64,000 bases of DNA from Odiellus spinosus (Eukaryota; Arthropoda; Arachnida; Opiliones; Phalangiidae). The stretch spans positions 7,123,424 through 7,187,423 of the forward strand of contig OY987231.1 of the NCBI GenBank assembly GCA_963920705.1, written 5' to 3'. The position numbers and the translations under genes are program-made. Below the pieces are notes generated by a model. The model was not told the DNA's origin and searched no databases. It saw only the letters and a list, made by a program, of their open reading frames with translations. Below are positions 4,741 through 58,611 of this stretch, piece by piece (within the stretch, counting starts at the first letter, position 1; every line of letters starts with the position of its first letter).

Positions 4741-7700
4741 GTTAGAGAAATTTTAATGATAAACTTCAATAAAGGGAAACTTCATTAAATGGAAACTTTG
4801 AGCTAAAAATGGAACAGCTTTTGAATTTATTTTCGGAATCACCGTGCCAAAAAACCTATTCGAGAATTTTTTCGGAATTTTTAGACACGTTTTATGTTCG
4901 TTAAATTAATTTCAAAAGTTTGGCAAAATTTCTATAAAAGTAAATATAAATAAGCTACGGTCACACCAGCATTTCTAAATCGATTTGAAACGGTAAAATC
5001 AAAACGATATTCAAATCGCCCGCCAGGAATCGTTTTAAGCAACACGCATTATCTTTATAAATCGATTTATCGTAGCTTCATCCCATATCGGTTGTTAAAA
5101 CCGAATCGGTACGAAACTGGTTCATGAAGCAGTTTTAAGAATGAAATCGATTCGAGAAAAGACGGTTTCACGTTCACGCGACTCTAGAGAAACGTTTTGA
5201 AACGGTTTAAATCGATTCCAAGGCCTCGTATGAAAGCGGCTTTATTAGAGCCTCTTGTAATGTTCTTACATTAAAAGAATAGGTAGGCGTTTGATGCCCA
5301 ACATCTTAGGCGTCAAACTCAGGCCTATTCTTTTAATGTTAAGACATGCGCTGTTTAAGCCTGGAATAATACGATTGGTCCGAATTAAGTTATTTACTTT
5401 TATAGAAATTTTACCAATCTTTCGATATTAATTTAAACACCAAAAACGTGTAAATGTTTTAAAAATTCTCGAATAAGTTTTTTCCCATGGAGATTCTAAA
5501 AATAAATTCAAAAGCTGTTCCATTTTAAAATTTCTCTTTAAATATTAAATTACATTCGACATGAGATCAGAAGCCGATGAAACCCTCCTTTGAAGTCTAC
5601 TACTCTAATGTTCCATATAGTGCTCCTCTCTGTATGGGTAAAATTCCCAATTTTACGGGATCCGAGGGGTCCTATTTCATACTCCCCTGTACGTCTACGT
5701 AAAATTGGAAAATCTCTTTCCCCACATACGACGACGTTTGGTTGACGAACTCCAAGGTTGCTATAAATAATCGCTGGACGAACTCCCGCTCCGAAAATAT
5801 CTACCGTTAGGAGGCGTACGAATCGCGCTTTTTGAAACTAACCCATACCATGGGCCAAGAAACGATAAATCCAGGACGTGACTCTTCCCTGTTTGAGGGA
5901 ATAAAATTCTCGGTCGGCCAAACAAACAGCCTTCGTACAGCGTTTGACGTCATATGACGTCACTTTGCTCCCAAAACGCCATAGCTTTGACTGTACAAAC
6001 TTGATCGCAAAAAAAGCGTCATCACGGTACGGTGAAGACGTAGCCTGTTTCTTTTAGTAGACGCTAGAGTTATGTCCTGGATTTATCGTTTTTTGGCCCA
6101 TGCCCATACAGAGAGGGGTAGACAAGACCCGGGAGTAATAGACTTTAAACGGAGGGTTTTATCGGCTTCTGGTATAACGTTTAAATTTAACGTGTACATC
6201 AAACCTCTTACATTTTTCTCTGGGGCCTTTAAATAACTATAAACCCTAAAACTCCAGACGGAAACTTATGTTTAATCATGTCTATCTTTATATTTCGTTT
6301 TATTCTGTGGGGATATAATTCAAGAACATCCAAATTACGATGACTAACTTAAAGGGAAACTTAGAAACTAAAAATGAAACAGCTTTTGATTTTTTTTTGC
6401 GGAAACGTTTCTGGTGTTTAAATTAATTTGAACATTTGATAAAGTTTGGAAGAAGGCGGAAATTATATGATTGGCCCGAATTTATACTTACATTCAAACT
6501 TAACCAAACTTTAGAAATTAATTTAAACACCAAAACCGTGTCTAATAAAAAAGATCGATTTTTGGCATGGTGATTCCGAAAATAAATTCAAAAGCGACTG
6601 TCCCTTTTTTAGCTCCAAGTTTCCCTTTAAATAAATCGGCCCCTCTAAAATTAGTAGAGCCTGTATACTTTTCAAGACAGATAACACCTATTTTCAAAAA
6701 TAAGAGGCTGTGTTCTTATAAGGCCATTTCCAAAGATCCTGAACGTATTAAAGGGGCTATCTGCAATTTTTAAATCCCATTTCAAGTCGCCTTTTTTCTA
6801 GCTTAGCACACGACTGTACAGTCAAAGCTAGGCTGTGTGCAAAAGGGAAAAGCATTTTAAAGGGGAAATTTCAGAGCAGATAGGGCCTTTAAGAAGCTGC
6901 ATACAGCTGAACTATCAGCCTGCCTCAAAAGTTAACCCAATGCTTTGGTTATTTTAGGGCTACTCTTGGTTGAGTGGTTTTTAGATGATTTAATAGCAAC
7001 TTTTCGACCCTTCCATTTTCAAATTAAATGGAAAAAAGTTGATAATTTGGTTGCTCTAAAATTGTGTGGAAGTTGCCTATTTGTTGCGTTACATATTCGT
7101 TTTGGTACTCAAAAACTAAAGAGAAAAGGTGACGTCGTTTTGCTTTGGTCATGCCCGGTAGTTTAATTTTATCTATAACACTACTCTCGTTTAAAAATGG
7201 GTTTTAAAACAAAGAGTACATTTCAAAATCCTTATTCTTTTAAATTAACGTTAATTATTTAATAAATTATGGACGTTATAGAAATCGTCGAACGTCACCC
7301 ATTACAGGATTTCTCATTAGCTCCAGAGAAGCGCTGGCTAAAACCATCGGCCAATCAGCTTCGTTCACAATAGTTGAACATTTTCGTTTATTATATTTTA
7401 AACTATTAAAGGGAGAATGCAGCAGCTAACAATCGGGGATTCTTTTTCGATTCGTTTAAATAAGCCACCACGATAAATAAAAATTACGAAACACATTATG
7501 CTAGCATATCAATTTTCAACTTACTCGGAAAGTAGGCTTAACAAGGATCCTTGTGAAGTTAGAATGAATTAAGTCTCGGACCAATTTGCGAAAGCGCGTG
7601 CCAGTAGATAGTTTGAAAAGTAGACCTATATATTATTGTGGGAATAAAAGCAGGCGCTTCTCGTAAAAAGTTTTTTTTTTTTTTTTCTATTGGAATATAG

Positions 7701-10700
7701 CTGCGTTCACACGAGACTTCGAAACCGTTTTGGAATGGTAAAAATTTTAATTTTAAGGTCACCTGTAAAGATCGTTTATCAAAGAATGGAATTTTAACAT
7801 TCGAAATGGCATGAAAACCATTTCAAAGTTGCTAGTGTGAACGTAGCTCAATATCTGCTGACTCGATTGGGGCCGTGTCAAAATGATCTTGCGTCAAGCT
7901 CGTGAATTTAATCAAAAGAAATTGAAAAAATTCTCTAGTATGTTTTTACAAAGGCGTGACGTCGGTTCTACTTTTCATTTCAATGTGCTTCCCAATCGGC
8001 TTACCCAATGAGGAAAAAATCATCTAATTTCGTCAAAATGGTTCAAATAGTTGCTATCATAAGAGAGGAGCTTACTTATGGCATGCTGCCGTCGACGTCA
8101 TCAGCTACGTAATAGCTAGAAAAAACTCAGTGCTCGTGAGCACCGAGCATTTCCTATGCTTATTTTTTCTATATCCGTGTCAGCTCTCAAGGTCGGGTCT
8201 CTCTCGAGTGACTTCTGAGCTCTCTGACCCCTAGCGTTTTATGAAAACGGAAATAACTGTCCTATATAACCTTAGCGCCACGTGATTTCGTGACGTAGTT
8301 AGCAACATTCGAACAAGATGTCGCACCTACAACTTATTTTATAATATCAACTATTGGAAAATTTCAACAGAATTCGACCAAATAGATCAAACAATTTTAA
8401 ATTCAACAAAAATGATATTTTAGATTTTAGTTCACTTTTGTTGAATTCGGGTTATTTCATTGGATCTATTTAGTCGAATTTGGTTCGGATTTTCCAATTT
8501 GGACCATTTTAGACAAAATAGACTCTTTCCTGATTGGTAAAGCCAATTTCTATGATAATTCTATGGGAGCACATTGAAATGTAAAGTAAAACCGACGTCA
8601 CGCGTATTAAAAAACAAATTGCATCGCGTTTTTAATAAATTTCGTGTGATTAAATTCACCAGCTTAGCGCGATATCAATTTGACAAGGGTTGAATCGAGT
8701 TAGTAGTTGCGTTTGTCTACTTTAAGGCCTAAAATTCTTTTTTTAACTTAAAACTTAATTAATTTAGGGTCCAGATAAAGCCAGAATTTCGAGATTGTGC
8801 GACTCGAATAAATACATCAAGCGCCTTTATGATGATGTACAAACTTTATACGATATCATGTATAGCGGAATGAAAATTTCAAGTAAGTGCCAAATATTGA
8901 AATATTCTAAACATTCAACAACAAAAATAACTGAACTTAAAATGAATCTATCTTCGTAGATGATGGACCGTGTTTAGGTTCGAGACAGACGTTAGATTCG
9001 CCGTACGAATGGATTAGTTACAGTCAAGTTAGTCTCGAAACTATAATTATATAATTTAAAGGAAAACTTGGAGCTAAAAATGGAAAAGCTTTTGAAATTA
9101 TTTCCGGGATCACGATGACAAAAAACCTATTCGAGAATTTTCAAAACGATTATTAGACACGTTTTTGGTGTTTAAATTAATTTCTAAAGTTTGAATAAAA
9201 GTAAATATGAATTCGGGCCAATCATATTGTCCTAACATTAAAAGAATAGGCCGGCGCTTGATGCCTATGACTTTGGACGTCAAACGCTGGCCTATTCTTT
9301 TAATGTTAGGACATTATAAGCTCTGTTGAAGGCTGAAATAAAATGATTGGCCTGAATTTATATTTACATTTCTTCAAATTTTGCTAAACTTTAGAAATTA
9401 ATTTAAAAACCAAAAACGTGTCTAAAAATTCTTTTTTGGCATGGTGATTCCGGAAATAAATTCAAATGCTGATCCAATTTTAGATCCAAGTTTCCCTTTA
9501 ATTTTTCAGCCCTAATTTGAATTCTTTCTAAACTTTCTTAAGGTTTTGGAGAGATGCAGACGATTCGGGGCTGGTCTTTTACAGTGTAACTTAACCCCGA
9601 GCCCTACGACTTTCGTCGGTATTTTTGCTAAAAATTCCGTAGAGGTTTGTGCTCAATTCTCAAATTAACGTTTACATTATCACGCGACTATCGTTAATTG
9701 TTAATGTTTCTTCGTATGTTTTAAATTAGTGGGTTCTGACGGAAAATGCCTGCTACCATTACTCTATGGTAATCGTCCCATTATACGACACTTTAGGCCC
9801 CGAAGCCTGTTCATTTATAATTCAACAAGGTATTACTTCTATTTAATTTAAGAACGTAGGATCTCATTTAAATTCGCTTTTTTTAAGTTAACGACAAGAT
9901 GAGACCATGAACTACAAAATGTGATGATAAATAATAAAGTTACTAATTATTACTATTAGAGAATAATTAAAAAACCGCTTACACATGAGGAAAAAACTAC
10001 ATCGATTTCTTTTATCCATTATTAATAAAGGTCCATGTTATGTATGTTCACGGCTTCTAAGGCACAGATATTTACTGTTACTAGAGCTCGGAATTCGTAT
10101 AACTTTTGACCATCGTGAATGTCAATCAGATATAATCCGTTCGCGAAAATATATTAGTTTCTTATTCGAGTTAACGCATACCTGAATTTAAGGCAAACTT
10201 TTTATTCGTACTAATTGTTATAGGAAATTTATACTTATACGAAATATTCATTGGCCGATAAGAAACATTTGAAACTCTAGTTTCTTCGCGGATTTTAGCC
10301 CAAATTGAGATCTAAAAGCTAGAATCATAATGTAATGATTTAGTCGCTGTTCCTTTCAATTTAGATTAAAATATAATTATTATATTTCATTATACACTGA
10401 TTTCGAGAAACTTCATATTTTTATCTTCGCATTATCCGTTTGAATAAACGCGTAATTTGTATATTAATGAAGCTTAAATTTATCTCCGGATAATTCGTCT
10501 CCATTTAATGCGTTTGTTTATGTAATTTGTGGTTTTATATTAAGCAAACAATTTATCCAAGATTAATAAAATATCTGAAAAAAGCGTAGTTATCAATGGA
10601 TAATGAATGGAAGTTATTCATTATCCGATTCCGAGCTCTAACTGACACAGCCATAAACTGCTATTATCTGCAAATATTTCCACAAAACTTGAGAAACCCT

Positions 10701-13700
10701 CCTCTCCTTGTCCCCAAAGCCGTTACGTTCCTTAAGTACCGCCTCCAAAATTAAAACGTCTTAGTGGTCCTTTATACAACAGATATTATTATGAAGTATA
10801 CTTAATAATGTTACGTATTACTAACTTAAATTTTGTATAGGCGCCCATGTGGTGGTTGAAGGCAAGATGAGCACCGTTCATTTGCTAGAACACATGTGAC
10901 GTTTACTTCCCCACAAACAATACTACTCTATCATAAGTTTATAACTTATCTTCTAGAAGTTATGAACTTATGACTACTTATTTATTTTGGCCAGTTTTGA
11001 CGTAATTGGTCTCATTTTGAGGCTAACATTGAGCTCTACTATAATCTCGTTTACCAAAGATGTTATATTTAAATAACAGAGAGAATTGATTTGTAGTATC
11101 GACAAGAACTAGTTCAGCCTATTAGCTCTTGCAAAGGGAAACCAGAAACCACTTAACCCAAAGACCCAACATTAGAAAGAGAATGCAAAATTTACTTTCC
11201 AGAGTCACGTTTCAAATGGATTCTCTCTTGAATTGAGCCAATTAAGTGTCCAACACATTTACTCAATCTAATTAATTCATCCCAATTTTAATTTTCAGCA
11301 TCTATTTCGTTGGTAATTTGTGACGAAGAAGTGAAAGTCGAATCCATGTTGAAGCAGACATCGGAAACTCCATCCCTTAAAACGATAGTTTACATACAAG
11401 ACATATCTCCCGAAACAGTAGCTTTAGCCCAAGAAAAAGGGGTTGCTCTCTTGTCCTATCAAGAGGTTGAGGTAATTATAATTACTAAAACTTTGTCACG
11501 AGCGTGCATCGAAGCATAGGAGATCTACTATGGATCTTAAACTTTTAAAATCAGTTAATTTTAATCAATTTGGACTGTGAAAAGATTATCAAAACTCACA
11601 CCAAAGATTTCATGGTAATTCACGGTTTGATTATACATGTGGCGAACGGGACTCACTAAGCCTAAAAATACTCGAGAAGATGGAATTGAATTGCTGGTGC
11701 CAATGAAAGATGTTAAAAAAAAATGGCGCGAGAATCAAATTTAACTCTAAAGCTCAAGCAATTTTTAACAAGCACGGCTTTTGGTTCAACCGCCATTTCA
11801 AAGAAACTCTCATTGGTTTCAGAGTTTCAGAAATTATAGATTTCCAATCTGAAATTTCTTAAATTTTAATTTTGGAACTTTGATAATTAACCGCTGATTA
11901 ACAAGAAACTTGAGTTTGTAAAATGATTTAATAGATATCTGTAGTCTTAATTGTTTAAAAAGAACTTTCCAGATCTTAGTATCCATTTAACCCTTACTGA
12001 AAAAAGTTAGTTTGATCTGAAGAGGTCCTCAAGAACACTACAAAAGTCTTGGGGAAGTCTTTACAACTTCTCCAAGACTTCTTGACATAATGAAAGACTT
12101 CCCCAAGACCTCTTAAGACCAACTTTTTTTGGTAAGGGAAAGAGCTTTTAAAGGGACAATCTGCGATTTTTAAATCCCCTATAAAGTCGCCTTTTCTAGC
12201 TTAGCAGACGACACTGACCATAACAAATTGTACACTCAAAGCTAGCCTGTGTGCATAAGGGAAGAACATTTTAAAGCCTGGCAAATATCAAAGCAGATAG
12301 GGCCTTTAAAGGGGTCGTATTAGGATATGCAGTGGCTGTACCTATTTTAAGGCATTCAAGGTCAAATTATAAGGCAGATAATTAAGCTCCGCCCCCAGCA
12401 TGGCTCATTATGACACCTTTAACACATCTTGATCTTGAGGATATTTATTCGTAATTCTTATTTTTAAGTGGCCCTTTTTGAAGCAATTTAATCTTAATCT
12501 AAAGCTTGAATCAAAATCTAAAACTATTCAAAATTATTATAGGAACTAGGAAGAACAAATCCACACAAGGCTGTCGTAAGTTTACAGATTTTTTTTTGAC
12601 AACAGCGTGTTAAAAAATGACATTAAGAATGTCCTAGACTTCTAAAAGCCTTTTTCTGATGGAACTCTTTTAGGGTGTAGCCCAATTTCTTTCATATGTC
12701 ATTTCACGCGCATTAATTTTATATAAAAACCTTTCAAATCTAATCTTGTGTGTTTCATCACGGGGTCGTCGCTAGTTCCAATACCAACCCACAATGAGTT
12801 CCTTCATTTGGGGCTATGTACTAGATTACATTCCTAGAGTCATATCATATACTTGCATGGAGTGGTAAAATACTCAATGGTAATACATATATTTTTTTAA
12901 AAAATAGCCTCCGAAGCCTAGTGACTTGGCTACCGTCTGTTACACAAGTGGCACCACCGGGAACCCCAAGGGGGTTATGCTAACCCATGATAGTATCTTA
13001 ACATGCGTTTCAGCTGTCATGTACCAATTTGGTGAATTTGCTCCTCGACATGGAGATACCATGATGTCTTTTCTACCTTTGGCACACATGTTAGAACGCT
13101 GTTGCGAAGTAAGAACCAACTTCTGTTAAGTATCATTTATTCATGCATTAATTGTAAATTTCATATATTTTCTAACTCAGACTGCAGTTTATATGACGGG
13201 TGGACAGATTGGTTTCTATGGAGGCGATATCCGCTACTTAATGGACGACATGATAGCTTTAAGACCCACAATTACCCCTTGCGTACCAAGAATTTTGAAT
13301 AAAATTCACGACAAAGTGCATTCCAGCGTTAGCGGTAGCCGACTTAAAACCTGGCTGCTCAATACAGCTTTAAAAAATAAACAAGCTGAACTTGACAGGT
13401 ATTTTTTCTTAACTCGGGAGTAAAAGCGATTTATCCCACCCGCACCGAGTGAAGAACCCAACTAACAAACTAAATTCTATCCTTATATACTTAAGGCATG
13501 TCGTAACGAATAACGGTATTTGGGATCGAATAGTCTTCAAAAGAGTGAGAGACAGTTTAGGGGGACGAGTCAGACTAATGGTTGTCGGGTCTGCACCAAT
13601 CTCCAGTAACGTTCTCACTTTTGCGAGATGCGCTCTAGGTTGCATGGTAATTAACAACCGAAATTTTTGAACCTCAATGGATTCGACCATCCGCTACGCA

Positions 13701-15123
13701 AAACAAGCCCCTTGCTGATTGGCTAAAGTCGTCTGCTAATTTGATCTGCCATAATAAAGGGCATCAGCTGTTTGTCCAACAACTGACCAAATAAGCGGAC
13801 AACGTTGACGAATCATCATGGTACAAGCCTTTCATGGTGCCCTTTCTATAGTGGATGGTCCTTTTAATCCTGCCAAGTTATGGTCCGCCTACTTTGGTTC
13901 GGACTGTCAAGGACCTAAGGAAGAACTTCTTTGAAAATACTCCAGCTAGTTCAGAACCAAAACGGAAAGTTTGACATTTGCTCCGCTATTCTTGTTGGGA
14001 TAATTTGGTGTTAAATAAACCGTTTTGGTCCTGCAATAGTAGGGTATTTTCGAAGCTCCTCCTTCTATCCTAACCAGAGTAAATCGACCTGGCTTCAAGT
14101 AAGATAACATTTGGGGAAAAAAAAAACACATTTCAGATCGTGGAAGGCTATGGTCAAACAGAATGCGTTGCTCCCTGTACATTAACCATTCCAGGCGACA
14201 ATACAACGGGTCACGTTGGACCACCAATACCCTGTTGCCAGATAAAACTGGCCGATGTACCCGAAATGGAATACTACGCTTCAAATAGTCAAGGAGAGGT
14301 AGTGTTAATTCCTCATTTTTTTTACAAAACAAATATTATTTTAAACGTCATATTCTTTAGATTTGCGTCCAAGGACCAAACGTATTCCAAGGATATTTCA
14401 AGGACCCTGAAAAAACTGCGGAAACCATTGATTCCGAGGGATGGTTGCATACCGGTGATATTGGAATGTGGCTTCCCGTAAGTTCATATTATTATCTCAA
14501 GATTAATTCAAACCCAAGGATATTAAAAATCTGGTTTTACCAAGAGAAGATTAATGTAAACCCATGTGCATATATGAAAAAAAAAAAAAAAAACTCACTG
14601 AATTCTACTACTAGTGAAAATCTAACATAACACTGAATAGAAAATTTGGTAGTTCCAACCCTTTTTATGAACACAAGAGTTCAAATTGACACTAAATCTA
14701 AAACTGGTATAAACAAAAAAAAAAATTAATCTCCATGTTGCAACTACCATATTTCATATATAGAATAATGTTTTAAGGAAACTTGAAGCTCAAAATGGAA
14801 CAGCTTTTGAACTTATTTTCGGAATCATTATGCCAAAAAACGTATTCGAGAATTCAAACAATTTAGATACGTTTGGTGTTTAAATTAATTTCTAGAGTTT
14901 GGTTAAGTTTGAATAAAGTAAAGTATAAATTCCTGGGCTTGTAATGTCCTAGCATTAAAATAATAGCCCAGTGTTTAACATCTAAGGTCTTGGGCATCAA
15001 ACGCCGGCCTGTTCTCTTAATGTTAGGACATTACAAGCGCTAATAAAGGCTGAAATAATATGACTGGCCTGAATTCAAACTTAACCAAACTATAGAAATT
15101 AATTTATTCATTCAAAAGCTGTT

Positions 15124-15154
<31 letters not shown>

Positions 15155-19350: not shown

Positions 19351-19690
19351 TGATATTGATAATCATATCAGGCCCCTCACTAATTTTTTTTTTTTTTTTA
19401 AATGGCACTGAGAACCTGATTTGATATAAAAAAAAAAATATTGAGCACGTTGGTACAAAGGAAACTGGTGTGCCTTAAAAAGAATGAATTGTTCTCCATA
19501 TCCAGAAAGCTATCAATTAACTTGAATTATTTATAAGGCTCCTAATAAGGATTAAAATTTATTGCTTGTTGAATTATTTTTGTAGTTTACCACACTTTTG
19601 GCACAATAATTATTGCACATTTATTTTTCATAAAAAAAGTTTAAAAAGAAGTTTTTTGATTTTATTTATAATTAAAAAAAACTTTCTTAA

Positions 19691-20007
19691 AGGGAGAATG
19701 CAGTAGTTGTTTTTCTATCGTTTAAAAGAGGCCTGATCAGCTCATTAAAAATTACAAACCAATGTTTAGCTAGAAAACCATTTTTAAATTACTAATACTC
19801 AAATTAGGCTTAGCAAGGATTCATTTGGGAGTCTTCGGCCAATCATGTTAGAAGCTTGTTTTCCTAGAATATTACGACAGTAAAACTATCTAAACTAGGC
19901 ATAAGTCTCGCGCGCTTACGCTAATTGGCGAGAGACGATATATCAAACACCCCACGAATCCTTGTTAAGCCTACTTTTAAAAATTAAAAAGTTAATTGCA
20001 GTCTCCC
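19691..20007. mobile_element. F2-related foldback element, 317 bp
   Basis: TTAA at 19687-19690 and 20008-20011. It starts AGGGAGAATGCAGTAG and ends TTGCAGTCTCCC. The inner blocks TTAGGCTTAGCAAGGATTC and GAATCCTTGTTAAGCCTA are inverted copies. Confidence 0.8.
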
Positions 20008-21543: not shown

Positions 21544-24255
21544 CTATAAAACAGATATTAAAAGAAAACCGTATATTACATATCGGGTAATATTTCACTT
21601 AAAATAAAGTATAAAATGGTTCAGACTTAAAGGCCTAACTTCACTTCTCCCCGTCGAAAAAGGGTTCAAACATCTTTTTTGCTTCCCCTACTTTCCCCTC
21701 TATTGTAAGCTCGCTCTCCCGTCTTCGGGGCTCGAAGGGATTATATTTAGCTTCGTACCTGCTTGCCAAAAACTAGAGAGAATAGGTCACTTTTACGTTA
21801 AACGATCAATCTATCTTTGTAGCGCTTACGATATTGGCGACGAGAAAGGCGATTCATACCTTTCCGAGGAGATATCGGACTTCTTTTTTTCGAAAATAAA
21901 GCGTATATGGGTTTCAAATAAATAAAAATTATATAGGTAGGCTAAATAATTCTGGTAAAGTTTTGGTATGAAGCGAGAAAATGGTACTACAGCAGTGAAT
22001 CCGTGACCTTGGTCATTGTATTAGAGCAGCCGGGAACTCGATTGGGAGGCGGAGGAAAGGTTTCGAAAATAAAGCGTATATGCGTTTCAAATAAATAAAA
22101 AATATTTAGGTATATGCAAGAAAGAATAATTTAATGAAAATATATTCAGGTATATATAGGAAAGAATAAAAACGAAAATATATAAAAATTAGTAAAACTT
22201 GCCTTTCAAAATTTCAAACAAATTATTCAATAACTATTATTTAGTTTTTATATCATGAGTTGATATTTTATTATTTTATTACATTTCTCAAACGATCTAT
22301 CCGTTTTAGTTTGGTATATCTCACTACATGACAAAAATTATATCCTTTGTAGCAACCTTGAAAAAAGGCAACATCTTCTGTAGACGCGGGTTCTATTTAA
22401 CGGTTCTTTTTGTAAGTTTCAAGGTTGGTAAAAGTATAGAAAATCCTATACTTTGAACCAGCCTTGGAAAAAGGTAACATCTTCAATACAAACGGGTTCT
22501 TTTTAACGGCTCTTTTATTCATTTCCAAGGTTATTTTATGATAAGGCCTATTGATTTCAAATTCGTTGTATTTCACGGTGCTCGAGCTGTTTCGAGGAAA
22601 CTCAGGAAAGTACGAAAACACTGAATATAATGGACGATCGGGCGCCGAATTGACCGAAGTGGCATGGTGTAACCTTACCCCCGCCTCCCAATCGACTTCC
22701 CGGCCGCTCTAATACAATGACCAAGATCACGGATTCACTGCTGTAGTACCATTTTCTCGCCACATACCAAAACTTTACCAGAATTATTTAGCCTATATAA
22801 TATTTATTTATTTGAAATTCATTTACGCTTTATTTTCGAAAAAAGAAAGTCCTATTTCTCCTCGGAAAGGTAAGAATCGCCTTTCTCGTCGCCAATATCG
22901 TACGCGATACAAAGATAGATTGATAGTTTAACGTAAAAGTGACCTATTCTCTCTCGTTTTTGGTAAGCAGGTACGAAGCTAAATATAATCCCTTCGAGCC
23001 CCGAAGAAGGGAGAGCGAGCTTACAATAGAGGGGTAAGTAGGGGAAGCAAAAAAGATGTTTGAACCCTTTTTCGACGGGGAGAAGTGAAGTTAGGCCTTT
23101 AAGGGAGGTCGCGGTGGTTTAAACTTAAAGCAATCACGTTATTGTAATTTTCAATAGCAATTCAATAGCCAATCACGGAGCTTAACTAGTTATCAAAATA
23201 ACACTTTGACCAGTTAATTTCTATATATAAATATATTTCTAATCATTAATAAACCTAAACTATAATAATATGAACAACCGAAGCGAAAACGACATTATTT
23301 TAGTTATTACCAATGTAATGATTCAATTTTATACACAGAAAAACCCTATTTGATTTCACGCTAAGCCTAATTCGGGACTATTTACGTTTTAAAATAAAGA
23401 ACTTTAGAGCCGCGCACTTTTGGCGCGAACGTAGCCACAGTTACACTCTGATGAAGTGATGGGTGCCTAGGATGCGCGATACTCTACAATTGGCTGAATA
23501 GAGTTGAGTTGTTTTATTGATTTTGAGGGGTAAATATTGATATTTCGAACGAACCCTCTCAACTAAGTCTCAATTAGTGTATCTCTTAATTATTTAAATT
23601 CAGATTTGGTTCCAGGTTGAGAGAAAAAAATACTCTAAACATATTATGTTTGATATTCGATACACACTTACCTACAAGGCTTGCACCAACTGCTCTGCTT
23701 GTCTAGACCATATCTCGCTCGACATTTCTTCGGATTGTTGCCGTCTATGAAAAGTAAAATGTTTATATCTATATTAATTAAATAGAGATTTGATTAATAT
23801 TAATCGTATATACAATGATTTAAAATAAGGCTAAAAAAATAGAAAAACAAAAAAGTTAAGTCGCAAGCAAAAGATAAAAATATGCCATGAAATGAAAAAA
23901 AAAAAAAAAAAAAAAGTAATTAATTGATAATAAAAAATAAAGGAAAAACTATGATCGTTGCAGGAAGGGGCAAATCAGACAAACAACTGTCAATTATTAT
24001 TATTTTTTTTTTTCGGATCTGATTTCAAAAATTAATGCAGAAATTTTATGGTAATAATTTTTCCTTAAAACATATATTTAATAATTAGCTACTAAAATAA
24101 CTAAGTTTCTAAAAAACTACAAGTAATTTAAATTAAAAATAAATATGAATTAAAAAAAAAACAATCCCAAGGCAAAATATAAATAATGATATATATATTT
24201 AAATTAAAGTGGAAAATTAAAAGTGTGATTTCGTTATATAAAATTATATTTAAAA

Positions 24256-25006: not shown

Positions 25007-28000
25007 CTTTAAATTAATAAACGACTGTGGAAATTTTCTAACATTCGTACATCAGTGTTTCTTGTGGAAGATAAATAGAAGTAAATAGAACCGAGGTGCG
25101 AGCCACTTCCCTAAACTCTGTACATCGATTAGGCGATTACGGAAATGATTACAGCCTTTGGTAGTACTAAATACGTAGTCAGTAACGTAAACACTTTAGT
25201 ACAGACAAAGCTTCAAGCGTGTACACAGATTAAGGGGAGTGGTCAGCTCCTCGAATAGAAAAGGCGCCCCTTGGAAGTGTTCTATCCTTCGCAATTCAAT
25301 GTTTCTAGTGAGTAGTGAAGCTAGCCTTGAAAAGATTCTAAGAGAAATATTGGCTAGTCGATTTTAAATATCAAGTTCTCGAGTACTCACCCTTCTTCCT
25401 AGTATTTGGTTGATGGCGGCGCTTTCCTTGAGAGTACACTCGGCGACGACTTTGGCTCTCATTTCCTTCATGTAGAGCATGAAAGCGTTGAGGGGTTTCT
25501 TAATGTGATTGGAGTTTTTGGGCGCTTTCTTCTCGTAGTGGTGATGGTGGTGGTTCGAGTTGGACGAGGATGTGGAAGAAGGTCTAGCGCCGCTACCCGC
25601 GTTGCCGTGATTGTTGTGTTGGTGAGCGTGATGATTCTGGTGATTACTTCCGTGATGTTCTGACGACGGATGATGATTATTGTTATTGTGGTGGTGATTG
25701 CTGGGAGGCGATACGGCCCCACCAACTCCACCGCCTGTATTGCCGCCGCCCACGTGATTCGGAACCGACGATGACCCGTTTCCGGCGTTCCCGCCACCGC
25801 CGCCTCCGCTCGATTCGTTGGATTTAAGAAGCGGCTTCTGGTCCAGATTAAAAGCGCTATGCCTGCGGTAAAATTCCAGCGGGTCATTCGTCGTGGCGAG
25901 GCTAGCTAATCGGTGGACGGGTGAAACGTTATGGCCCCACCTGTTGTTATCCTGGCCGTGGTGCGGCACTTCTTGCTTGGGTCCCGGCGTGATGATGGCG
26001 TGATGCGAAAAACTTGGGTGGGCGGGCAAACCCGGGTGAGGCGGAATCAACGTCGGTGGGGCAAACCTCGGTAAACCCGACGCCGAAACGGGCAGCGTCG
26101 ACGGGTAAGAACCCCTGAAACCAGCCGACGTCATGGGGTACATTGATGGATTATGCCTCGAGAGCAAAGGCCTGAAAATAAACAAGAATAAAATTAACAA
26201 AACTTAATAAAATTAAACGATTCCTGTCAAGGTCCTTTTAGTTAGGACCTATTCTAACTTGGTGACCAAAAAGTCAAAGGAAAAATTAGGACAGTTCTCC
26301 GGCCTTATTTGCCCTGAAATTTGCCCCTTTAAAAATGCTCTTTCCTTATGTACACAGACTAGCTTTGACTGTATAGTTTGTTATGATCAACGTCGTCTGC
26401 TAAGCTAGAAGGGGATTTAAAATAAAAGAGCTACGTCATTCCAGGAGTGTTCTATCATTGGGGGATGATGATCCCAAATGCGTTTTATATTCGGGTATTT
26501 GTAATTATCCACGTGGGTAATTTAATTCAATCATCATTGTTGAATTCTTCGTTCGCGAATTTCGCGAACGAAGAATTCAACATTAAAAAATTAAACCTTC
26601 TCGAATCAAATCTTAAAAAGAAAGTGCCCTAAATACCAAATAAACCAAGCCGCAGTCGTTCGTCTTCGGAGAAGGGTTCGCTAATTTTTAAGAATGCAAT
26701 CCGCGTAATTAAGAAAATCTTGTTAGGCAAATTCCACCACAAATCCTTTCTTTCTTTTCCTCTTTCTCTTTTCCACCTTCGAATTAATCCTTTTGTGAAA
26801 AAGGGGCGAGAATGCAACCTCCCAAAAGTTCTCCTCTCAACCCTGACACTCCTACTTGGCCCTATACCTTTCCTTCTACGTGTCTAGAAGAAGAAGATGA
26901 AGAAGAGGAAGAAGAAGAAGAAGAAGAGGGCAGAAAACACTAATGGAGAAAGTGATATTAGAAAACGAGGAAAAGGGACTCGTCTCAGTAATTCTATTTA
27001 ACTTTCTCCATCTCACATACCCCCTGCCAACGTATCACTGACTAAGTTAAAGTGAGATTGAAAGGAAAGTTATTTTATAAAGATGTAAAAATAAAATTCA
27101 ATATTAGAGAGCCTAAGAAATAGATTAAATTCAAACTTCACAACATCTATATTCTCAAGAAATCTTTAAAACATCTAGAAGTATTTAACAATGGACAAGT
27201 ATCTTAATGCATAAAGTTAAGAAAACAAAACCTAGCGTTCATAACCGTCCTCCCACGGCAAATGAATTCCAGAAATAGTTGTATTAATCTTTATTTATTT
27301 TCAAAGAAAACTTAGTATTGAGTTAAGTTAAATAAATTAAAATAAAATGGTATTTATGGAAAGACTCAATAGAGGTCGTTAAAAGTTTATCACTGGAGAC
27401 AATTTCGCTAAGCCTAACTCTTGAATGAATAATCATATTTGAAGTTCATCAATGGCTCAATGCGAATATATTTTACAATTACGGTTCACTTAAGCCTAAT
27501 TTTTTCGGTTATTTATTTGCATTATCCTATCCCTTTCAAAGGAATAAAACCGCATCAGTTTAAAAGGTTCAAGTGTTTGCCACTCCCTCTTTAGCTTCGG
27601 CTAATTTTAGCGTTAGTTAAGTGGTTTGTTACGGGACCATCTCTGAAATTATGGGATATAAAAATAACTTGAACATTTCACGCTCCCTTTTGAGATAAGG
27701 TAGCGTCTCTAGCGACTGAAAGACTCATCAAGGTGCAAGAGAAAATACAACGTTGGAAACGTGTATATCGGAAACTTCATCAATAAGTCATAAAAAGAGC
27801 TAAACAAGCTTCGAAACGCTATTGGGAATTAAAAAGGGTACGAAAAGCAAAGACAGGAAGTGGAAGGAGTACTGGATTTTTGGGGAAAGGGAGTTTTCCC
27901 CCCAAAAAGATGAAATTAAGGCAAAACTGTAAGTTTAAAAACACTTCATTAATTTAAAACTTAGCGTCAGGCGTTAGGTAAAACAGTAAGAGGCCAAACA

Positions 28001-39671: not shown

Positions 39672-39676
39672 ACTCT

Positions 39677-41190: not shown

Positions 41191-41490
41191 AAGCCGCGTA
41201 TATACTAGGCCTTGGAATCGATTTAAATCGTTTCAAAACCTTTCTCTAGTCTAGAGTCGTGTGAACGGGAAGCCATCTTTTCTCGAATCGATTTGAATCG
41301 ATTTCTCGAAACTGCTTCGGGAACCAGTTTCATACCGATTCGGTTTCAACAATCGATAGATGAAGCTACGATAAATCGATTTATACAGAAAATGCGTGAA
41401 CACGTGACGCTTAAAACGATTCCTGGTGACTGGATATCGGTTTTGGTTTTATCGTTTCAAACCAATTAAGAAATGCTAGTGTGACCGGCA
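41191..41490. mobile_element. F6-type element, TCGATTT subfamily, second copy
   Basis: AAGCCGCGTATATACTAGGC at the left and GCTAGTGTGACCGGC at the right. The body is the inverse of 4953-5240 (AATCGATTTAAATCG, TTTTCTCGAATCGATTTGAA, GAAGCTACGATAAATCGATT). Confidence 0.8.
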
Positions 41491-48310: not shown

Positions 48311-48804
48311 TTTTTGATTTATTTTTGATTTTTTATTCAGGTGTGAATGTACCTCTCATTGCTTCGAATGAAGACAAAATAAGATATATAAATAAAAAAA
48401 TATAGGGTAGTACGTTGGGGGGGGGAGGCGGCTTTTAAGCCGATGGCCTAAGTGCGCTCCGGATTGCGCCCTGGAACAATAATGTATTACCAGATACGAG
48501 TTTGTTCAATTCGCATCAAACGATGTTACGAGGTATATACGATATTGGCGTGGTATTTCCTAATAAACGAGTTTCTTGATTTTTACACTCATTCCCCGGT
48601 TTATCTCTATTAACTCGGATACATCAAACGGTCTATAAAACATAACGCAATCTGTTCAATTCATTACAGTTAATAAAGGGATAGTAGGGAAGTAGAAAAC
48701 GAGGTAGAGTGTTACCCCTAAAAGAAACAGTACCACGTGAAATATGCTTAACATTTTAAACTCGTGCAAGGTGACGTTGTATCACAGAGATATAGGCCTA
48801 TTAA

Positions 48805-48945
48805 AGATACTACCTGCGATTTTTAAATCCCCTTTAAAGTCGCCTTCTTTTCTAGCTTTGCAGACGACGTTGACTATAAAAACTGTACAGTCAAAGCTAG
48901 GTTGTGCTCATTTTAAAGGGGAAAATTGTAGAGCAGATAGGGCCT
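48805..48945. mobile_element. F3 foldback element, copy d
   Basis: TTAA at 48801-48804. ACCTGCGATTTTTAAATCCC at the left and GAGCAGATAGGGCCT at the right. Confidence 0.8.
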
Positions 48946-48957
48946 AAATTTAAAGTG

Positions 48958-49215
48958 GACAACACATCTGGCGACTCGATTAGGGCCTTGTCAAATTAAT
49001 CTAACCCGAATTCAACAAAAGTTCAGCAAATTAAATTTAAATTTTGTTCCCTGTTAAAATCTGGGTTATTTCATTTGGCCTATTTGATCAAATTATGTCC
49101 CAATTACTTATTTATAACATTTTTGTACAAATTAGAAGATTTTGAAATAAATAAATTGGATATTTGGCGATACAAGTTACGGGAATTAGTGTGATTAAGG
49201 TGGTTTTCAATAAGA
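48958..49215. mobile_element. F7-like fragment (uncertain)
   Basis: CTCGATTAGGGCCTTGTCAA resembles the F7 left end at about 7861. The rest is weakly similar. Confidence 0.4.
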
Positions 49216-49901: not shown

Positions 49902-50333
49902 AGAGGAACTTGGAGCTGTACCAAAAAAAACGTATCGAGAGTTTTCAATTAACTTTTAGACACGTTTTTGTTGTTTAAATTAATATCTAAAGTTTGGTAA
50001 AATTGAATAAAAGAAAATATAAAATCGGGCAGATTCAACAGCGCTTGTAATGTCCTAACATTAAAAGAATAGGCCGGCGTTTGATGCCTAATACCTTGGC
50101 CGAAAAACGCCGGCCTATTCTTTTAATTTTGGACATTACAAGCGCTATTGAAGGCTAAAACAATAATAATAATGCCCAGAATTTAAATTTAGTTTCATTC
50201 AAACTTTACCTAAATTTATAAATTAATTTAAAGATCAAAATCGTGCCTAATAATTGTTTGAAACGTACGTTTTTTGACATGGTGAGTCCGAAAATAAATT
50301 CAAAAGCTGTTCCATTTTTAGCTCCTTTCCATT
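49902..50333. mobile_element. F1 foldback element, copy E
   Basis: TTAA at 49898-49901 and 50334-50337. Central arms TAACATTAAAAGAATAGGCC and GGCCTATTCTTTTAATTTTG. The terminal bases are more diverged than in copy C. Confidence 0.85.
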
Positions 50334-50337
50334 TTAA

Positions 50338-51739
50338 CAATCTATTTTCATACTATTTGAATAGATAAATATATAAAAAGCTCAGTTCGGCTTGATCAAC
50401 TTGTTAGTTTAGCGGTCGCGTCACTGTAGACGTCACTCATCCCCTAGAGTTCCGGATGTATAAAGAGCGCAGGCGCGGTGAAAGCAGGCGTTAAGCTTGA
50501 GAGTGAAACTAGAGATCTTTAGAATTTTGTCATTTTGACTGCGGGCGCCGTGTTTCTGTACAAGAAACGTCACAGGTGACGTCGACGCTCAACTTACGAA
50601 AAAGGACTCCTCCCTTTTATATATTTATCTATTTATAGTCCTGTCATTATTAAGCTATACAATTATTTACCCTCTGGGCGAAATCACGGAAAAAGCCCCC
50701 ACCAAATTTAACTAAATCTCACTATATAGAAAGCGAAATTCCTGTAAACATAAACTCATAATCATATTATACAATATATCTTTAATATTTTATATATTTG
50801 TATATATAGTATAATACAATTTTTATCATATAACCATCTACATAATGGGTATTATTACTACATATATATACTCGGGGAGTGGGGCATTGTTGGTAGTTTC
50901 CCCTTCTTCCACTCCTACCCACCCTCCATGGTATATATATATATATGTTGCGCAAACTGAAAGGTGGGTTATGTAAACAGGAGGTTTTACGACAATCTAC
51001 ACGTGTATTTTCAATAGCACATCACTCTCAGCAGAGCCCACTCTCTCCGTTCTCTCTAATCCGCGATCCACGAAGCCAATTCAAGCGGAAACCTCGGCAC
51101 CCAAATCCGTACACGTGACCCGGGGGTTGATCCTACACTGTATCCTCTAGTGCATCAAATACTCCGTCTTCTCTTTCTCGCAAGCAACGTGCTCAAAACT
51201 GGTGGAGCTTTAATTCTCTACTGGATCTGTATCCAAGTTTTATCTTTCCCTTTAACGTTTATTCGTCGGTTCAGTTACGATAAACGGAATGTAGAGAGCT
51301 AGGGCACCCGACCGAGACAGATTAAGATGACAATGATACAATAGATAAGGCGTGCGCGCCCCGGATAAAGCTAGATATCCTAACCCCCAGTCCATCATCC
51401 CCCATCTCTCGATCATATGTTTATATAAGGAATGACGCGAATATGATGACGTACCAGAGGGAAGATGGGAATGTTTGTTTTTATTAGCGTGTATTATTGT
51501 GTAATCTAGTACACGCGTAAGTATAGCCTACGTTCGAATAAATCAAAGCATCATTTTTAACTGATTTTAATTTTATATGATTGAGTATTTTAACGACTTA
51601 ATTATTAATTAAACTCCAGAGCGTGATAACTAAATTAATATATATTTTCATCTTAAGATTTTTCATAACATTTCAGAAAGCCTTTTACAGGACAATATCC
51701 TTTCATTTTTTTCCTAACCTTTTAAAGATTAATTTTTCA
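50338..51739. other. No gene recognised; moderately GC-rich part at 51000-51480
   Basis: 50400-50630 has GTGACGTCGACGCTCAACTT-like words reminiscent of F7. 51000-51480 is richer in G+C, with a TATATAAACA box on the minus strand near 51420, but no coding exon could be read. Confidence 0.4.
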
Positions 51740-52935
51740 CTAATTATTAGCTCAGTTTTGAAATTCCCAGACTTTCCCTCATCAATTTAGCCTAATTTTA
51801 AAATTCCCAGACTTTCCCTCATCAATTTAGCCTAATTTTAAAATTCCCAGATATTTCCCTAATTAATTTAGCCCAGTTTTATAATTCCCAGACTTTCCCA
51901 AACCTAAATAGTTTAGTCCAATTTTTAAATTCTCAAGTTTTTATTTCGACAATCAATTTACTCAAATTTTGAAATTCAGACTTTCCCTAATAAATTTAGT
52001 CCAATTCTGAAATTCCCAGACATTGACCTAATCAATTCAGTCTAATTTTCAAATTACCAGACATTTTCCTAATCAATTTAGTCCAATTTTGAAATTCCCA
52101 GACATTCCCTAATCAATTTAGCTCAGTTTTGAAATTATAAGATATTTCCCTAGTCAATTTAGTCCAATTATGAAATTACCAGATATTTTCTTATTAATTT
52201 AGCTGAGTTTTGAAATTCCCAGACATTTCCTAATCAATTTAGCTCAGTTTTGAAATTCCTCGATAATTCCATAATTAATTTAGCTCAAATTGAAATTCCC
52301 AGACATTTCCCTAATCAATTTAATCAAATTTTAAAATTCTCAGACATTTCCCTAATCAATTTAATCCAATTTTAAAATTCTCAGACATTTAACTAATCAA
52401 TTTAATCAAATTTTAAAATTGTCAGACTTTCCCAAATCAATTTAATCAAATTTTAAAATTCTCGGACATTTCCCTAATCAATTAAATCTAATTTTAAAAT
52501 TTTCAGACATTTCCCTAATCAATTTAATCAAATTTTAAAATTCTCGGACATTTCCCTAATCAATTTAATCAAATTTTAAAATTTTCAGACATTTCCCTAA
52601 TCAACTTAATCAAATTTTAAAATTGTCAGACATTTCCCTAATCAATTTAATCAAATTTTAAAATTCTCAGACTTTCCCTAATCAATTTCATCATATTTTA
52701 AAATTCTCAGACTTTCCCTAATCAATTTCATCATATTAGGGAAAGTCTCAGACTTTTCCTAATCAACTTAATCAAATTTTAAAATTCTCGGACATTTCCC
52801 TAATCAATTAAATCTAATTTTAAAATTGTCAGACTTTTCCCTAATCAATTTAATCCAATTTTAAAATTCCCAGCCATTTCATTAATAAATATAATGCAAT
52901 TTTAAAATTCCCAGACAATTCCTTAATAAATATAG
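51740..52935. repeat. Degenerate minisatellite of about 41 bp, nearly 30 units
   Basis: Units read CCCTAATCAATTTAATCAAA then TTTTAAAATTCTCAGACATT. They are more divergent at the left (TAGCTCAGTTTTGAAATTCC) and more uniform in the centre. Confidence 0.92.

Positions 52936-53410: not shown

Positions 53411-53440
<30 letters not shown>
53411..53440. repeat. Poly-A run (30 A)
   Basis: An uninterrupted A tract with no adjacent gene-like or SINE-like body. Confidence 0.95.
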
Positions 53441-53442
<2 letters not shown>

Positions 53443-53688
53443 TTCGCCGCGTAAAACCTACTTTGAAATTCAAAACATATGTAAATATTTCAACTACACG
53501 GCTACCGGAAGAATATTACAGCGCTCAAACTTAATAATAATAAAAAAAATAAACTGGTTAAGATTTTAACATATTTCTCTACGAAATTAAGGTTAACCTA
53601 AAATTAATAATATTTAATTTGGTTTATAATTTAATAAAGTTAAAGGTGAAGTATCATCTAAAATTGACCATGATATTGAAATAGAACT

Positions 53689-54210
53689 AGAGCTCGGAAT
53701 TGGATAATGAATAACTTAGGATATCCTTTGATAACAAGGCTTTTTTCAGATATTTTTAATCTCGGATAAATTGTTAATATAAAATCATAAATTATATAAA
53801 CAATTATACGGAGATAAAATTTTAAGCTTGATTAATAAACAAATTACGCGTTTATTCGAACGGATAATGCGAAGATAAAAATATGACGTTTCTGGAAATC
53901 CGTGTAGAATGAAATATAATAATTAGATTTTAATCTAAATTGAAAGGAACAGCGACTAAATTACTACATTCTAGCTTCGTTATCTCGATTTGGGTTAAAT
54001 CCGCGAAGAAACTTAGTTTCAAATTGTTCTTATCGGCGAATGAATAACGTATCAATTTCCTATAACAATGAGTGCGAATAAAAAGTTTGCTTTATATTCG
54101 GATACGTTAACTCGAATAAGAAATGGATATCTTTCGCGACCGGATAATATCTGGTTGACATTCACGATGGTCTTATTCAATTAATAAAAGTTACACGAAT
54201 TCCGAAGCTG
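53689..54210. mobile_element. F8 element, copy 2, reverse orientation
   Basis: Starts AGAGCTCGGAATTGG and ends GAATTCCGAAGCTGT. The body is closely similar to the inverse of 10083-10639. Confidence 0.8.
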
Positions 54211-54551
54211 TACGCTTATGAACACCAGAAGGTTTTATTATTCATCTTTACGCATTAAGAATGGTGTCCAATGTTAATAGCCATAGATAAGAGCGACTAA
54301 ATGAGGCCCTGAACTCCAATATAGGCTCATAAATAATTAACTTTCAAAACATAATTAAAGTTTATTCAAAGACTAGGTATACCACTGAACCAAGAGTTAA
54401 ACTATTTCCGTACAAAACATGGTATTGGGGAGACAGTAAAAGACTAAAGGAAAGGGAAAAGAAGGCACGATCTCACGTATCTAATTAAATCAAAACTTAA
54501 TTTGAAATAGGACCTGTCCTTATTTAAATTGATGTAATGTTTGAAGATTTT

Positions 54552-55037
54552 AAAGTGAGGCTGTCAATGATTTTCCATTAACTACAAATGGAAAATGAGT
54601 ATCATTTTCAAAAAGATTGTTAAAACACGAATAAAAATATATATACATATCGCATCGAAAAGATTAACGCGAAAGTAAAAATACATATTTTATAATCGAC
54701 ATTTACGAAATTTTTAAAATAAAAATTCTCCGCAATCTACGTCATCACTATATGGTCGCGTGACTATTGTAGAGCCTACAGTTGATTTTCGCGCTTTCTG
54801 ACACGTGATAAGATCGCATTCGCGCGTTCTTTTTCGTAAAAGTACTTAATCCAGAAAGTCGTATGAAAATTATCGTTAATTACGTTCCAGAAATACATAT
54901 TTTTGAAATTTTAATTTCTTAAGAATAAGAAAGCTCAACCCAGAGTTGTAAAATTTGGAATATTGCGTTTTAAAAGTATGATAAAACGAAAAATTTAATC
55001 CATAGACATTCGAAAAAATGGTGACAGCCTCACTTTA
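54552..55037. mobile_element. F9 element with AAAGTGAGGCTGTCA ends
   Basis: AAAGTGAGGCTGTCAATGAT at the left and TGACAGCCTCACTTTA at the right are inverted. Related pieces are at 28913-29175, near 30166 and near 56259. Confidence 0.7.
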
Positions 55038-55351
55038 TATTTTAAAATCAGTTTTTTCTATGGCGTTTCCCACGCGTTATACGGGTCATAAAATTTGTTA
55101 TGGAAAATGTCACACCCTTTGTAATGAAGCTAAAAGAGGGGCGTTTAAAAAGCTTTTGAAAATTGTAATTTGGCAAAAGAAGCCGATAAGAATACGGTAG
55201 CGAACTTTGAAGACACTTTTTCAAGCCCACGAATGATAGATATAAGCGTATATAAGGGGCGAAATGAGGTGATTTTGACAACCTACGTTGGAAATCTGAA
55301 GTTTAAAACAAGTGAATGGAAAATTTAATATTCTATATTATGGCCTCTTAA

Positions 55352-55642
55352 AGTTATGGGCTTAAATTGAAAATACTAGTTACAAATGAAACTCGGAATC
55401 ACCAAGCCAAAGAAATGTATTCCGAAGACACGTTTTTGATGTTTAAATTAATTTCTGAAGTTTGGTAAACTTTGAATAAAAGTAAATATATTTTTACAAA
55501 CATTGTTGAAGGCTGAAATAATATGATTGGCTTGAATTTATATTTGCTTTACCAAGCTTTGGAAATAACTTTAAACACCAAAAACTTGTCTAAAAATCGT
55601 CTGAAAAAATCCTCGAATACATTTTAATCTCCAATTTCCCCT
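55352..55642. mobile_element. F1 foldback element, copy F (centre lost)
   Basis: TTAA at 55348-55351 and 55643-55646. GAAACTCGGAATCACCAAGC and TAGACACGTTTT-type blocks are recognisable. Both arms are decayed and the central palindrome is gone. Confidence 0.75.
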
Positions 55643-55646
55643 TTAA

Positions 55647-57313
55647 ATAATACCAAAAAAAAAACCCTACATTAATGCTTGAAAATATTCCCGACAGGTA
55701 ACGCTAGTTCCTCGAAGAACGCAATCCGATATAAAAATAAAAAAAACCCTAGAAAGTGGAGACTAGTCTGAAAGACTATACTGCAAGATCGTTGCTTACG
55801 ACGCGTGCAAAATTAATTTTCTTTTTCTTATTATCATTCGAGATTATATATTTCTTTTTTATTTAAGATTGTTTTAATAGTTTTTTTATTCCCATTGTGA
55901 TAAATATTTCAAAAAAGAAAACTCGATGGTTAAATTTTGATTCCCGAAAAATTTGGCTTTACAAAAGACTCTAAAATTAACGATGCAGGACTGTCGACAT
56001 CTCGTTAGAAATGACAATAAAAGGCTTTCGTGAAATGAATGGATTAACTAACGTACCAGAAAAAAAAATGCCTCATTTCGTTACGTTCGATTTAATCGAG
56101 AAGTTGAAAATCGCGAGACAAATAGTAATAAAAATTTGGGGAAAGAACTATTATTTTTAGTATATTGGTTTTTATCCCTATTCGTGGTAAACCAACGCAT
56201 TTATCATATATATTTTATAAAGGGTTAGTTACGCTCGATGAAATATTTTATTGTTAAAGTGAGGTTGCCAAGGATTTCATGCTTCAAGTTTACAACAAAG
56301 CATATTATGATTGGTATGTTGTTCTGACAGTTTTGTCGTCAGATCTGAGCTTTCGCCCAAGGAGAGAGGAAAAAATCCGAAAACTCTAAACGATCGAGAT
56401 ACGGAATTCGAAATTGCCCTCTCTAGCGGTTGAGATTGGAACTAAGTAGGCGGTGAAAATATTGCGCTGAACTTTCTAGACGTTTACGGGGGTGAAAATG
56501 TATCGACGGAAAACAACTCTCCCCTCTCTCGAGAAACGAAGGAGCGTGTCTCGCTCGGCCGTCGCGATTTCGAGTCTGATTTACTCTAGAAAGAATATAA
56601 CAGGCCTGGCCGCCCTTCTGTACAAATCGGAATACTTATGGTGAATACCATGGACTGAGAAAATCGGACTCACTTCATTGTCACCCGCAGTATGTCCTCT
56701 TATAAACTTGAAGGATGATTTACATGTGATAATAAATATATAGTTACCGGAATTTTCATTTCCTAAGTTGCGTATTTTAAACCCTAAAAGAGACCTCGAT
56801 TAAGGTATGTTTTATCCAATAGGAGCTGATAAAACGGGAAAAAGGTGGGGCGGAGTGATACAAGACGTTAAATCCGATAGATAAGAAAGTAGGTACGGCG
56901 AACTCTAATTGAAACGTCCATAAAGAGGAAATTTACAATAAAAATTATCTCGAAAACTATCTTCACGGATGATTGAATCAAAATTAGTTTTATTTCGCCG
57001 GATCTTATCCTTTTTTTTATTTTATACGGGTGGGTTCAAACCTAATATAGACGCGATAGACACGGGTTTAAGGTTTAGTACGATACTTAAACGATGACAT
57101 TGAAAACTCGAACATTATCCATTACAAATAAATTGGTATATACCACAGGAAACTGAGACAGGTTGAATTTTAGAAATGATTACGTAACAGGTAGAAAGTA
57201 ATATTCCAAAACCGAGTTTCATAGAGTAAAACTACACTGATATTAACTAAACCTAGGAGTAATACAAGCCACCATGGCACCCAATAAAGATACGAAGCCA
57301 CTAAGGTTGTCAA
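55647..57313. other. No feature recognised
   Basis: AT-rich; a somewhat GC-richer patch at 56370-56600 has no readable exon. An F9-like AAAGTGAGGTTGCCAAGGAT is near 56259. Confidence 0.5.
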
Positions 57314-57657
57314 AGGGACAATGCAATCTAATAACAAGTGATTTTCTATCGATTCCTTATTGTTTAAATAGGCCTAATCCAACAGTAAAGAAAAAACTAG
57401 AAATAAATTTAAAACTTACCAGTAAAATAGGCTTAGCTGGATTCATGGCGATCACCTGTACTCCCCATATAAGGAGTATCGACCAATGATATTAGTCGAT
57501 GGTCCTTATAAAGGGAGTTCAAGATTGCCACGAAGTTTTAAATAGATTTCTAGTTTAATATTTGTTAGTATTTTTTTTTTACATTTGGATTAGGCCTATT
57601 TAAAAGATAAAGAATCTATACAAAAAAAATCACTTGTTGTTAGGTTGCATTCTCCCT
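57314..57657. mobile_element. F2 foldback element, copy d
   Basis: Right TTAA at 57658-57661; the left flank is GTCA, probably mutated. ATCGATTCCTTATTGTTTAA, TAGGCTTAGCTGGATTCATG and TTAGGTTGCATTCTCCCT match the family. Confidence 0.85.
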
Positions 57658-58611
57658 TTAATATAACAGTTATCATACAAGCCAGGGAGCCCAGTCATAA
57701 TTGCAGATTTCTAATTTATACCATTTTTGATTAAAATATTTTTATATTTTTTTCCTGATTGGAAATGCCGATATCTTATGACTCAGTTATAATGTAAACA
57801 TTGGTCTCCTTATCAAGTGAATTTCATTTCTAGAACTTCTTCGAATAAGACTATTACAACAAAATATCCTTTTTTCATTGGATTGGATAACAATATATTA
57901 ATCCCATTTTTCATTTCTCAAGAAAAAAAATTGCGAATCCATTGTAAAAAAAAAAAAACTCCTCCGAAAAACCGCTAAGTTGGTTTCTTAAGAGGTGTAT
58001 ATATACATTCTGGGATATGTTTCGCAACGAGACCACTCGAATTTTCCTTGGGGGATATACTTTTGTGTCGACTCTTAATCCTTTCACCAAAAATTTTGGG
58101 TCATAAGCCACTTGTCCTCGTAGCTCTTCTCGTCGTAACCCCAAAATTTCTCAGCCCTTACCCCTTCCCGACTCCATTTTATGGAAATACAATGTCTTCG
58201 CGTAATTCACTTATAATAGAAATCCCCCCAACCGTTCACGCCAACTTGATTTCAACTCCCGTGATCAGGGCTCAACTTTCTTCCGGTCAAGAAGTGTTTG
58301 CCTAATATAAAAGGCTAAATGCGTATTGATACACGTGTGTTAAACCTCATACGCTAAAAAATAGATACCAATTAATCTTCAATAAGAGTAGATTCAAAAT
58401 CATACTCAATTTTCATCCTGTTCAAACTTTAACTATCACTAAAGGTTGAGTCACAATAAAATTCACTTTTTTTGGTTAGCGATCGAGACATCCCAGTAGT
58501 TTTTTAGATATTTCAGATTATTTTTATTCATAATTTGAAATTATCCATAAAAGTCTACGATAAATCCAACGCAATCAAAATATTTTACTGATTATTATTA
58601 ATAATAATCGT

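Follow-up and report, generated by a model that had tools for sequence, protein, structure and literature searches.

Genes and foldback elements in the window

The stretch of DNA that we analyzed, referred to here as the window, is 64 kb long (C7:7123424-7187423 within a 443-Mb assembly) and, by eye, has the character of animal DNA. It contains two open reading frames with protein-domain matches and copies of four foldback families, F1 to F4, together with two lone ends that resemble F3. These features are given below by position in the window; foldback copies have no strand assigned unless one is shown.

13130-14478 (+): open reading frame matching AMP-binding enzymes (for AMP-binding, one of two over the cut-off)
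25367-26203 (-): open reading frame matching the HMG box
4785-5541: F1, both flanks TTAA, tips ATGG and AGAG, with an unrelated repeat nested at about 4958-5242
6349-6630: F1, both ends TTAA-AGGG
9056-9501: F1, ends TTAA-AGGA and TTAA-AGGG, central palindrome at about 9225-9320; query for the F1 genome search
14772-15131: F1, left end decayed (TTTA), right end lost in an A/T run
49925-50336: F1, left end lost, right end decayed (TAAA)
55393-55646: F1, left end lost, right end TTAA-AGGG
6748-6892: F2, ends TTAA-AGGG and TTAA-AGGC
12148-12309: F2, ends TTAA-AGGG and TTAA-AGGC
26301-26410 (-): F2, ends decayed, the readable end being TCTC
48801-48949: F2, left end TTAA-AGAT, right end decayed (ATTT)
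28358-28638: F3, left end TTAA-ATGG, right end decayed (TCAA)
34217-34510: F3, lying in another repeat, left flank TTAA, right flank TTAT
36375-36695: F3, both flanks TTAA; query for the F3 genome search
57310-57661: F3, left flank TCAA, right end TTAA-AGGG; tips closest to Kolobok element A (described below)
7406-7456 (+): lone F3-like end, TTAA-AGGG
19687-19776 (+): lone F3-like end, TTAA-AGGG
21627-23102: F4, TTAA-AGGCCT at both ends, arms of about 437 bp that are 94% alike

For the gene with the AMP-binding match, a possible earlier exon was seen by eye near 8770-9030; with such an exon, the F1 copy at 9056-9501 and the F2 copy at 12148-12309 would be intronic. Several long tandem arrays also occur in the 64 kb (219-1470, 46416 to about 48000, 51707-52925, and 60334-63988), and their units differ in length (34, 26, 40-41, 23, 32, 22, 26, and 20 bases). 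The repeat nested in the first F1 copy (4958-5242) has a second copy at 41191-41487; the two are 80% alike and unrelated to F1. Other dispersed repeats lie at 8044-8356, 35230-35546, and 58606-58892 and at 10088-10640 and 53688-54205, and neither set showed TTAA-AGG ends at its printed edges. A third dispersed repeat is present at 27204-27263, 31758-31810, and 54212-54280, and two of its copies are used as empty sites below. A search of the window against Rfam gave 0 matches at the gathering score.

A first-pass annotation of this DNA had counted six copies of F1, about six of F2, four of F3, and one of F4. Three of these counts stand, whereas F2 has four clear BLAST matches in the window. We rejected the reading of 34217-36695 as a single 2.5-kb F3 element, as this interval holds two separate copies, the first ending at 34510. 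The bodies of the four families had been described as unrelated; however, the tips of F1 and F3 match at 15 of 30 positions, and these two families may therefore be not wholly unrelated.

TTAA and AGG at element ends

We used homology to reference copies of the families to place the ends in the window and read the four bases present at every expected position; ends that have been lost (F1 at 15151, 49861, and 55345; F2 at 26456) were left out. Among the 28 ends read, TTAA was found at 21, AGG at 21, and both at 17, in agreement with the TTAA flanks and AGG ends reported in the first-pass annotation. TTAA occurs at 887 positions in the window (1.4% of positions), giving a binomial P of about 1e-33 for TTAA at the located ends, a value that is somewhat flattering because the reference copies contain their own ends and because the end itself contributed to the detection of the two lone ends (7406 and 19687). 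Pairs of the form TTAA-AGG...CCT-TTAA with matching tips no more than 2 kb apart number four in the window; a set of 100 third-order Markov sequences contained no such pair.

TTAA is present on both sides in three of six F1 copies, two of four F2 copies, one of four F3 copies (plus the two lone ends), and the single F4 copy. Across the window, TTAA flanks both sides of 7 of the 15 copies, and both ends read TTAA-AGG in 6 of the 15; the remainder are decayed or cut. The pattern is real, but many copies have decayed.

TTAA as a duplicated target site

We searched the 443-Mb genome with F1, F3, and F4, scoring the best 40 of 4411, 4484, and 1738 first-look candidates, respectively; all three families are dispersed in the genome. 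TTAA was found at 33 of 34 ends in 17 full copies of F1 and at 33 of 36 ends in 18 full copies of F3, all chosen for matches spanning the query end to end, a selection that favors intact ends. At less selected ends, taken from F1, F2, and F3 matches inside other loci and counted by eye, TTAA was found at 10 of 14 distinct ends (F1, 0 of 1; F2, 2 of 3; F3, 8 of 10). AGG is weaker than TTAA in the F1 genome copies (22 of 34 ends). For F4, TTAA occurs on both sides at 28 of 30 genome loci, with the window copy counted and with L017 and L021 as the two misses. Among the 40 candidates scored for F4, identity to the window copy is as high as 99%, suggesting that this family is young, whereas the full-length F1 and F3 genome copies in our counts are 71-80% similar to the window copy, and these families look older.

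Just beyond TTAA, from position -5 outward, conservation among the F1 and F3 genome copies is at background, and the commonest base one position outside TTAA drops to a frequency of 0.33-0.47; TTAA therefore does not belong to a longer end common to the copies. The first-pass annotation had proposed that a longer conserved end containing TTAA would count against its reading; for F1, F3, and F4, conservation stops at TTAA. An exact-pattern search for the F3 end in viral contigs gave 0 matches.

Empty sites, which had been proposed as a check, were found for F3 and F4. The F3 copy at 34217 is inserted in a host repeat, and when its flanks were joined so as to retain the four bases once, paralogous copies of that repeat at 27175-27263 (-) and 54212-54280 (+) each showed a single TTAA; two further copies of the host repeat align up to the junction and no farther. 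Three F4 copies elsewhere in the genome (L018, L022, and L026) are inserted in tandem arrays, in which the sister units provide natural empty-site tests. For L018 and L022, the sister units align without gaps across a single TTAA, which is present in 7 of 8 alignment rows for L018 (the other row has TTCA) and in 14 of 14 close rows for L022. Other F4 comparisons gave mixed results: the flanks of L028 align to L020, a weaker paralogue (58/84), with TTAA; the sister units of L026 have TTTA and TATA; and the comparisons of L004 and of L020 with L028 are gapped, with TAAA and GTTA, respectively. We excluded L008 as evidence, as its alignment, made with a shortened flank, is to itself.

TTAA is the duplicated target of F3 and F4, based on empty sites, and of F1, based on its flanks; it is probably also that of F2, judged by flanks in the window. 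None of the four families carries a recognized transposase. Taken together, the end counts, the edge of conservation, and the F3 and F4 empty sites bear out the earlier view of F1 to F4 as non-autonomous elements flanked by a TTAA target-site duplication.

Kolobok elements in the same genome

The first-pass annotation had also proposed a search for a full-length, transposase-bearing element with the same kind of ends, and the genome contains two such multi-copy elements with TTAA-AGGG termini, which we call A and B. Element A (C1:15103759-15109838) is 6080 bp long including both TTAA sequences, and its two arms show no difference across 496 bp, TTAA included (492 bp without it). Its left end reads TTAA|AGGGATAATGAAAGGG in 14 of 14 loci examined. 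The right tip is present in 16 of 18 further regions, with TTAA in all 16, as well as in the element that was read whole. A comparison over 2.3 kb showed the copies of A to be about 100% alike, and A may therefore be active. Element B (C7:6737205-6741807) is 4603 bp long and reads TTAA|AGGGTTACCGACAG at both ends; TTAA|AGGG was also found at 20 of 20 further ends from 10 copies.

Both elements encode a THAP domain over the cut-off (PF05485), followed by a motif order that would fit a DDE transposase: W-SQP, D, D, DxxH, HxxHx6CxH (an H2CH finger), and E; the first D in element B (ADGRCDSPG) was read by eye in printed frames. On the opposite strand, each encodes a protein matching P2RX7_C (PF20478) over the cut-off, corresponding to KolX. 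When lists of matches were compared by eye, THAP exons of the A type had a KolX partner about 3-4 kb away in 18 of 19 cases, and those of the B type in 11 of 11. The termini of A and B (AGGG...CCCT) have the 5'-RR...YY-3' form of Kolobok elements. Every Kolobok feature that we checked was found in both, and, judged by their predicted proteins and termini, A and B are Kolobok elements of the Kol0 lineage.

The THAP domain gave at least 150 genome matches (150 of 638 candidates scored), including several multi-copy sets. A third tip, TTAA-AGGGGTCCTTCGGA, lies close to KolX genes at four loci (one end seen per locus), and two of these loci have a flank in common. TTAA-AGGG ends are thus found in two full-length Kolobok families and, probably, a third. 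An element with an 801-aa THAP protein (L064) had no TTAA-bounded inverted pair (at least 16/24, more than 800 bases apart) within 8 kb. The Pfam “Mutator” model PF20700 gave 74 genome matches, which we presume could represent KolobokE or another Kolobok lineage.

Relationship of the foldback families to A and B

We compared the 41 bases that follow the shared AGGG, in register, between the foldback tips and the ends of A and B, using 5000 shuffles across 54 comparisons. The F3 copy at 57310-57661 is closest to A, with 25 of 41 matches at 57310 and 23 of 41 at 57661, and 0 of 5000 shuffles reach either value. The remaining F3 ends match A at 14-19 positions (p 0.007-0.21), and F3 compared with the right end of B gave p 0.011-0.012 among the 54 comparisons. 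The tips of F1, F2, and F4 have no match to A or B beyond AGG(G), with a best p of 0.014 among the same 54 comparisons. No close derivatives of A or B were found among the window elements, and an incomplete search identified no element that combines F1, F2, or F4 ends with a transposase. Based on these tip alignments, F3 was probably moved by A or a relative of A, and other Kolobok families were probably the movers of F1, F2, and F4. The first-pass annotation had one transposase moving all four families; of these, F3 alone has tips similar to those of one of the full-length elements.

Origin of the TTAA-AGG pattern

One account of the pattern would be that TTAA belongs to the element end itself or that the pattern arises by chance in AT-rich DNA. 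The DNA is indeed AT-rich, and F2 tips hold an internal CCCCTTTAA, so TTAA words recur; however, the single TTAA at paralogous empty sites and the binomial P for the located ends speak against this account, as does the genome-wide count of TTAAAGGG...CCCTTTAA, which occurs 1390 times compared with 83 for the pattern read backwards (mostly F2-like tips among the matches listed). We give this account practically no credence. The enzyme proposed in the first-pass annotation was of the piggyBac type, which would here need an unusual preference for AGGG ends. A TTAA target is common to piggyBac, and one piggyBac-like fragment is present in the genome; yet this fragment (L031, C89:21948-22319) is a partial match, covering positions 2-129 of 349 at 42.7 bits, and it is alone in 443 Mb for the one piggyBac model used (PF13843). 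Within its 3.4-kb locus, TTAA is nowhere followed by AGG on the forward reading, and no inverted pair bounded by TTAA reaches 19/24; we therefore rejected piggyBac as the mover. The same locus has a cysteine-rich open reading frame downstream in a different frame. The ends of piggyBac, given as CC[C/T]T in a passage of PMC2872659, are absent here, the tips of F1 to F4 reading mostly AGG, and AGGG-type ends belong instead to multi-copy Kolobok elements. The piggyBac mover is largely refuted, and we regard a piggyBac origin as very improbable.

F1 to F4 are instead very likely non-autonomous (MITE or foldback) elements of Kolobok type, moved into TTAA by Kolobok DDE transposases, and their Kolobok-type designation is well supported. 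The transposase would bind near the AGG tips, probably through its THAP domain, excise the element, and paste it into a TTAA site, leaving TTAA on both sides; the transposases of A and B, or relatives of these, would have been the ones to move F1 to F4. A narrower version of this explanation, which does not contradict it, holds that every foldback family had a separate Kolobok family with private termini as its mover, AGG being a trait of the superfamily, without cross-mobilization. Past AGGG, F1, F2, and F4 show no convincing similarity to A or B, and there are several candidate families (A, B, the elements with the third tip, and other THAP sets). Against this, the search, though incomplete, gave no private autonomous partner for F1, F2, or F4, and we lean only slightly towards private movers. 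That one Kolobok transposase instead reads little beyond AGGG and TTAA, and so mobilizes several families with unrelated ends while the foldback arms help to pair those ends, appears unlikely. Cross-mobilization of this kind is open to a simple test, as likely sources and foldbacks occur in one genome.

With F1 to F4 very likely of Kolobok origin, abundant foldback repeats are linked to a known transposase superfamily, and their likely source elements persist in the same genome. More generally, TTAA alone does not imply piggyBac, and the terminal bases help to decide.

Comparison with known systems

Passages in PMC9587614 state that the RR/YY ends set Kolobok apart from piggyBac, whereas the C/DxxH motif is common to both, and that KolX, a protein resembling the C-terminal ballast of P2X7, is found in the Kol0 lineage. 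KolX is not exclusive to Kolobok, as the same passages mention a small number of piggyBac families with a protein similar to the C-terminal part of KolX. A and B share with Kol0 Kolobok elements the TTAA target-site duplication, the RR/YY ends, a predicted DDE transposase with DxxH, KolX, the THAP domain, and the H2CH finger; the long perfect arms of element A (492 bp without TTAA) and the lack of a recognized transposase in F1 to F4 are differences. Part of PMC6004289 describes Kolobok elements as having a TTAA target, RR ends, and transposases usually with DDE, THAP, and H2CH motifs, and a table in that source gives ten full-length elements with ends starting in AG and with TTAA flanking all but one end. 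Kolobok is also listed among insect MITE superfamilies in a portion of PMC5199201.

Based on the section of PMC2872659 that describes them, the coral CMITEs, like piggyBac, have the TTAA duplication in common with F1 to F4, and CMITEs are thought to be moved in trans; however, their ends read CC[C/T]T rather than AGG. The Xenopus T2-MITEs offer a comparison at the level of the foldbacks: in the relevant part of PMC6004289, these have a TTAA target, terminal AGGRR, and 16 major subfamilies named, and Kolobok transposases of their own genome are the presumed movers. Like F1 to F4, T2-MITEs comprise several subfamilies at TTAA, and AGGRR fits the commonest F1 and F3 tips and the left ends of F2 at 6748 and 12148; unlike AGGRR, F4 and the right ends of F2 read AGGCC. 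As very likely non-autonomous members of Kolobok, F1 to F4 are of a known kind, represented by the T2-MITEs of frogs.
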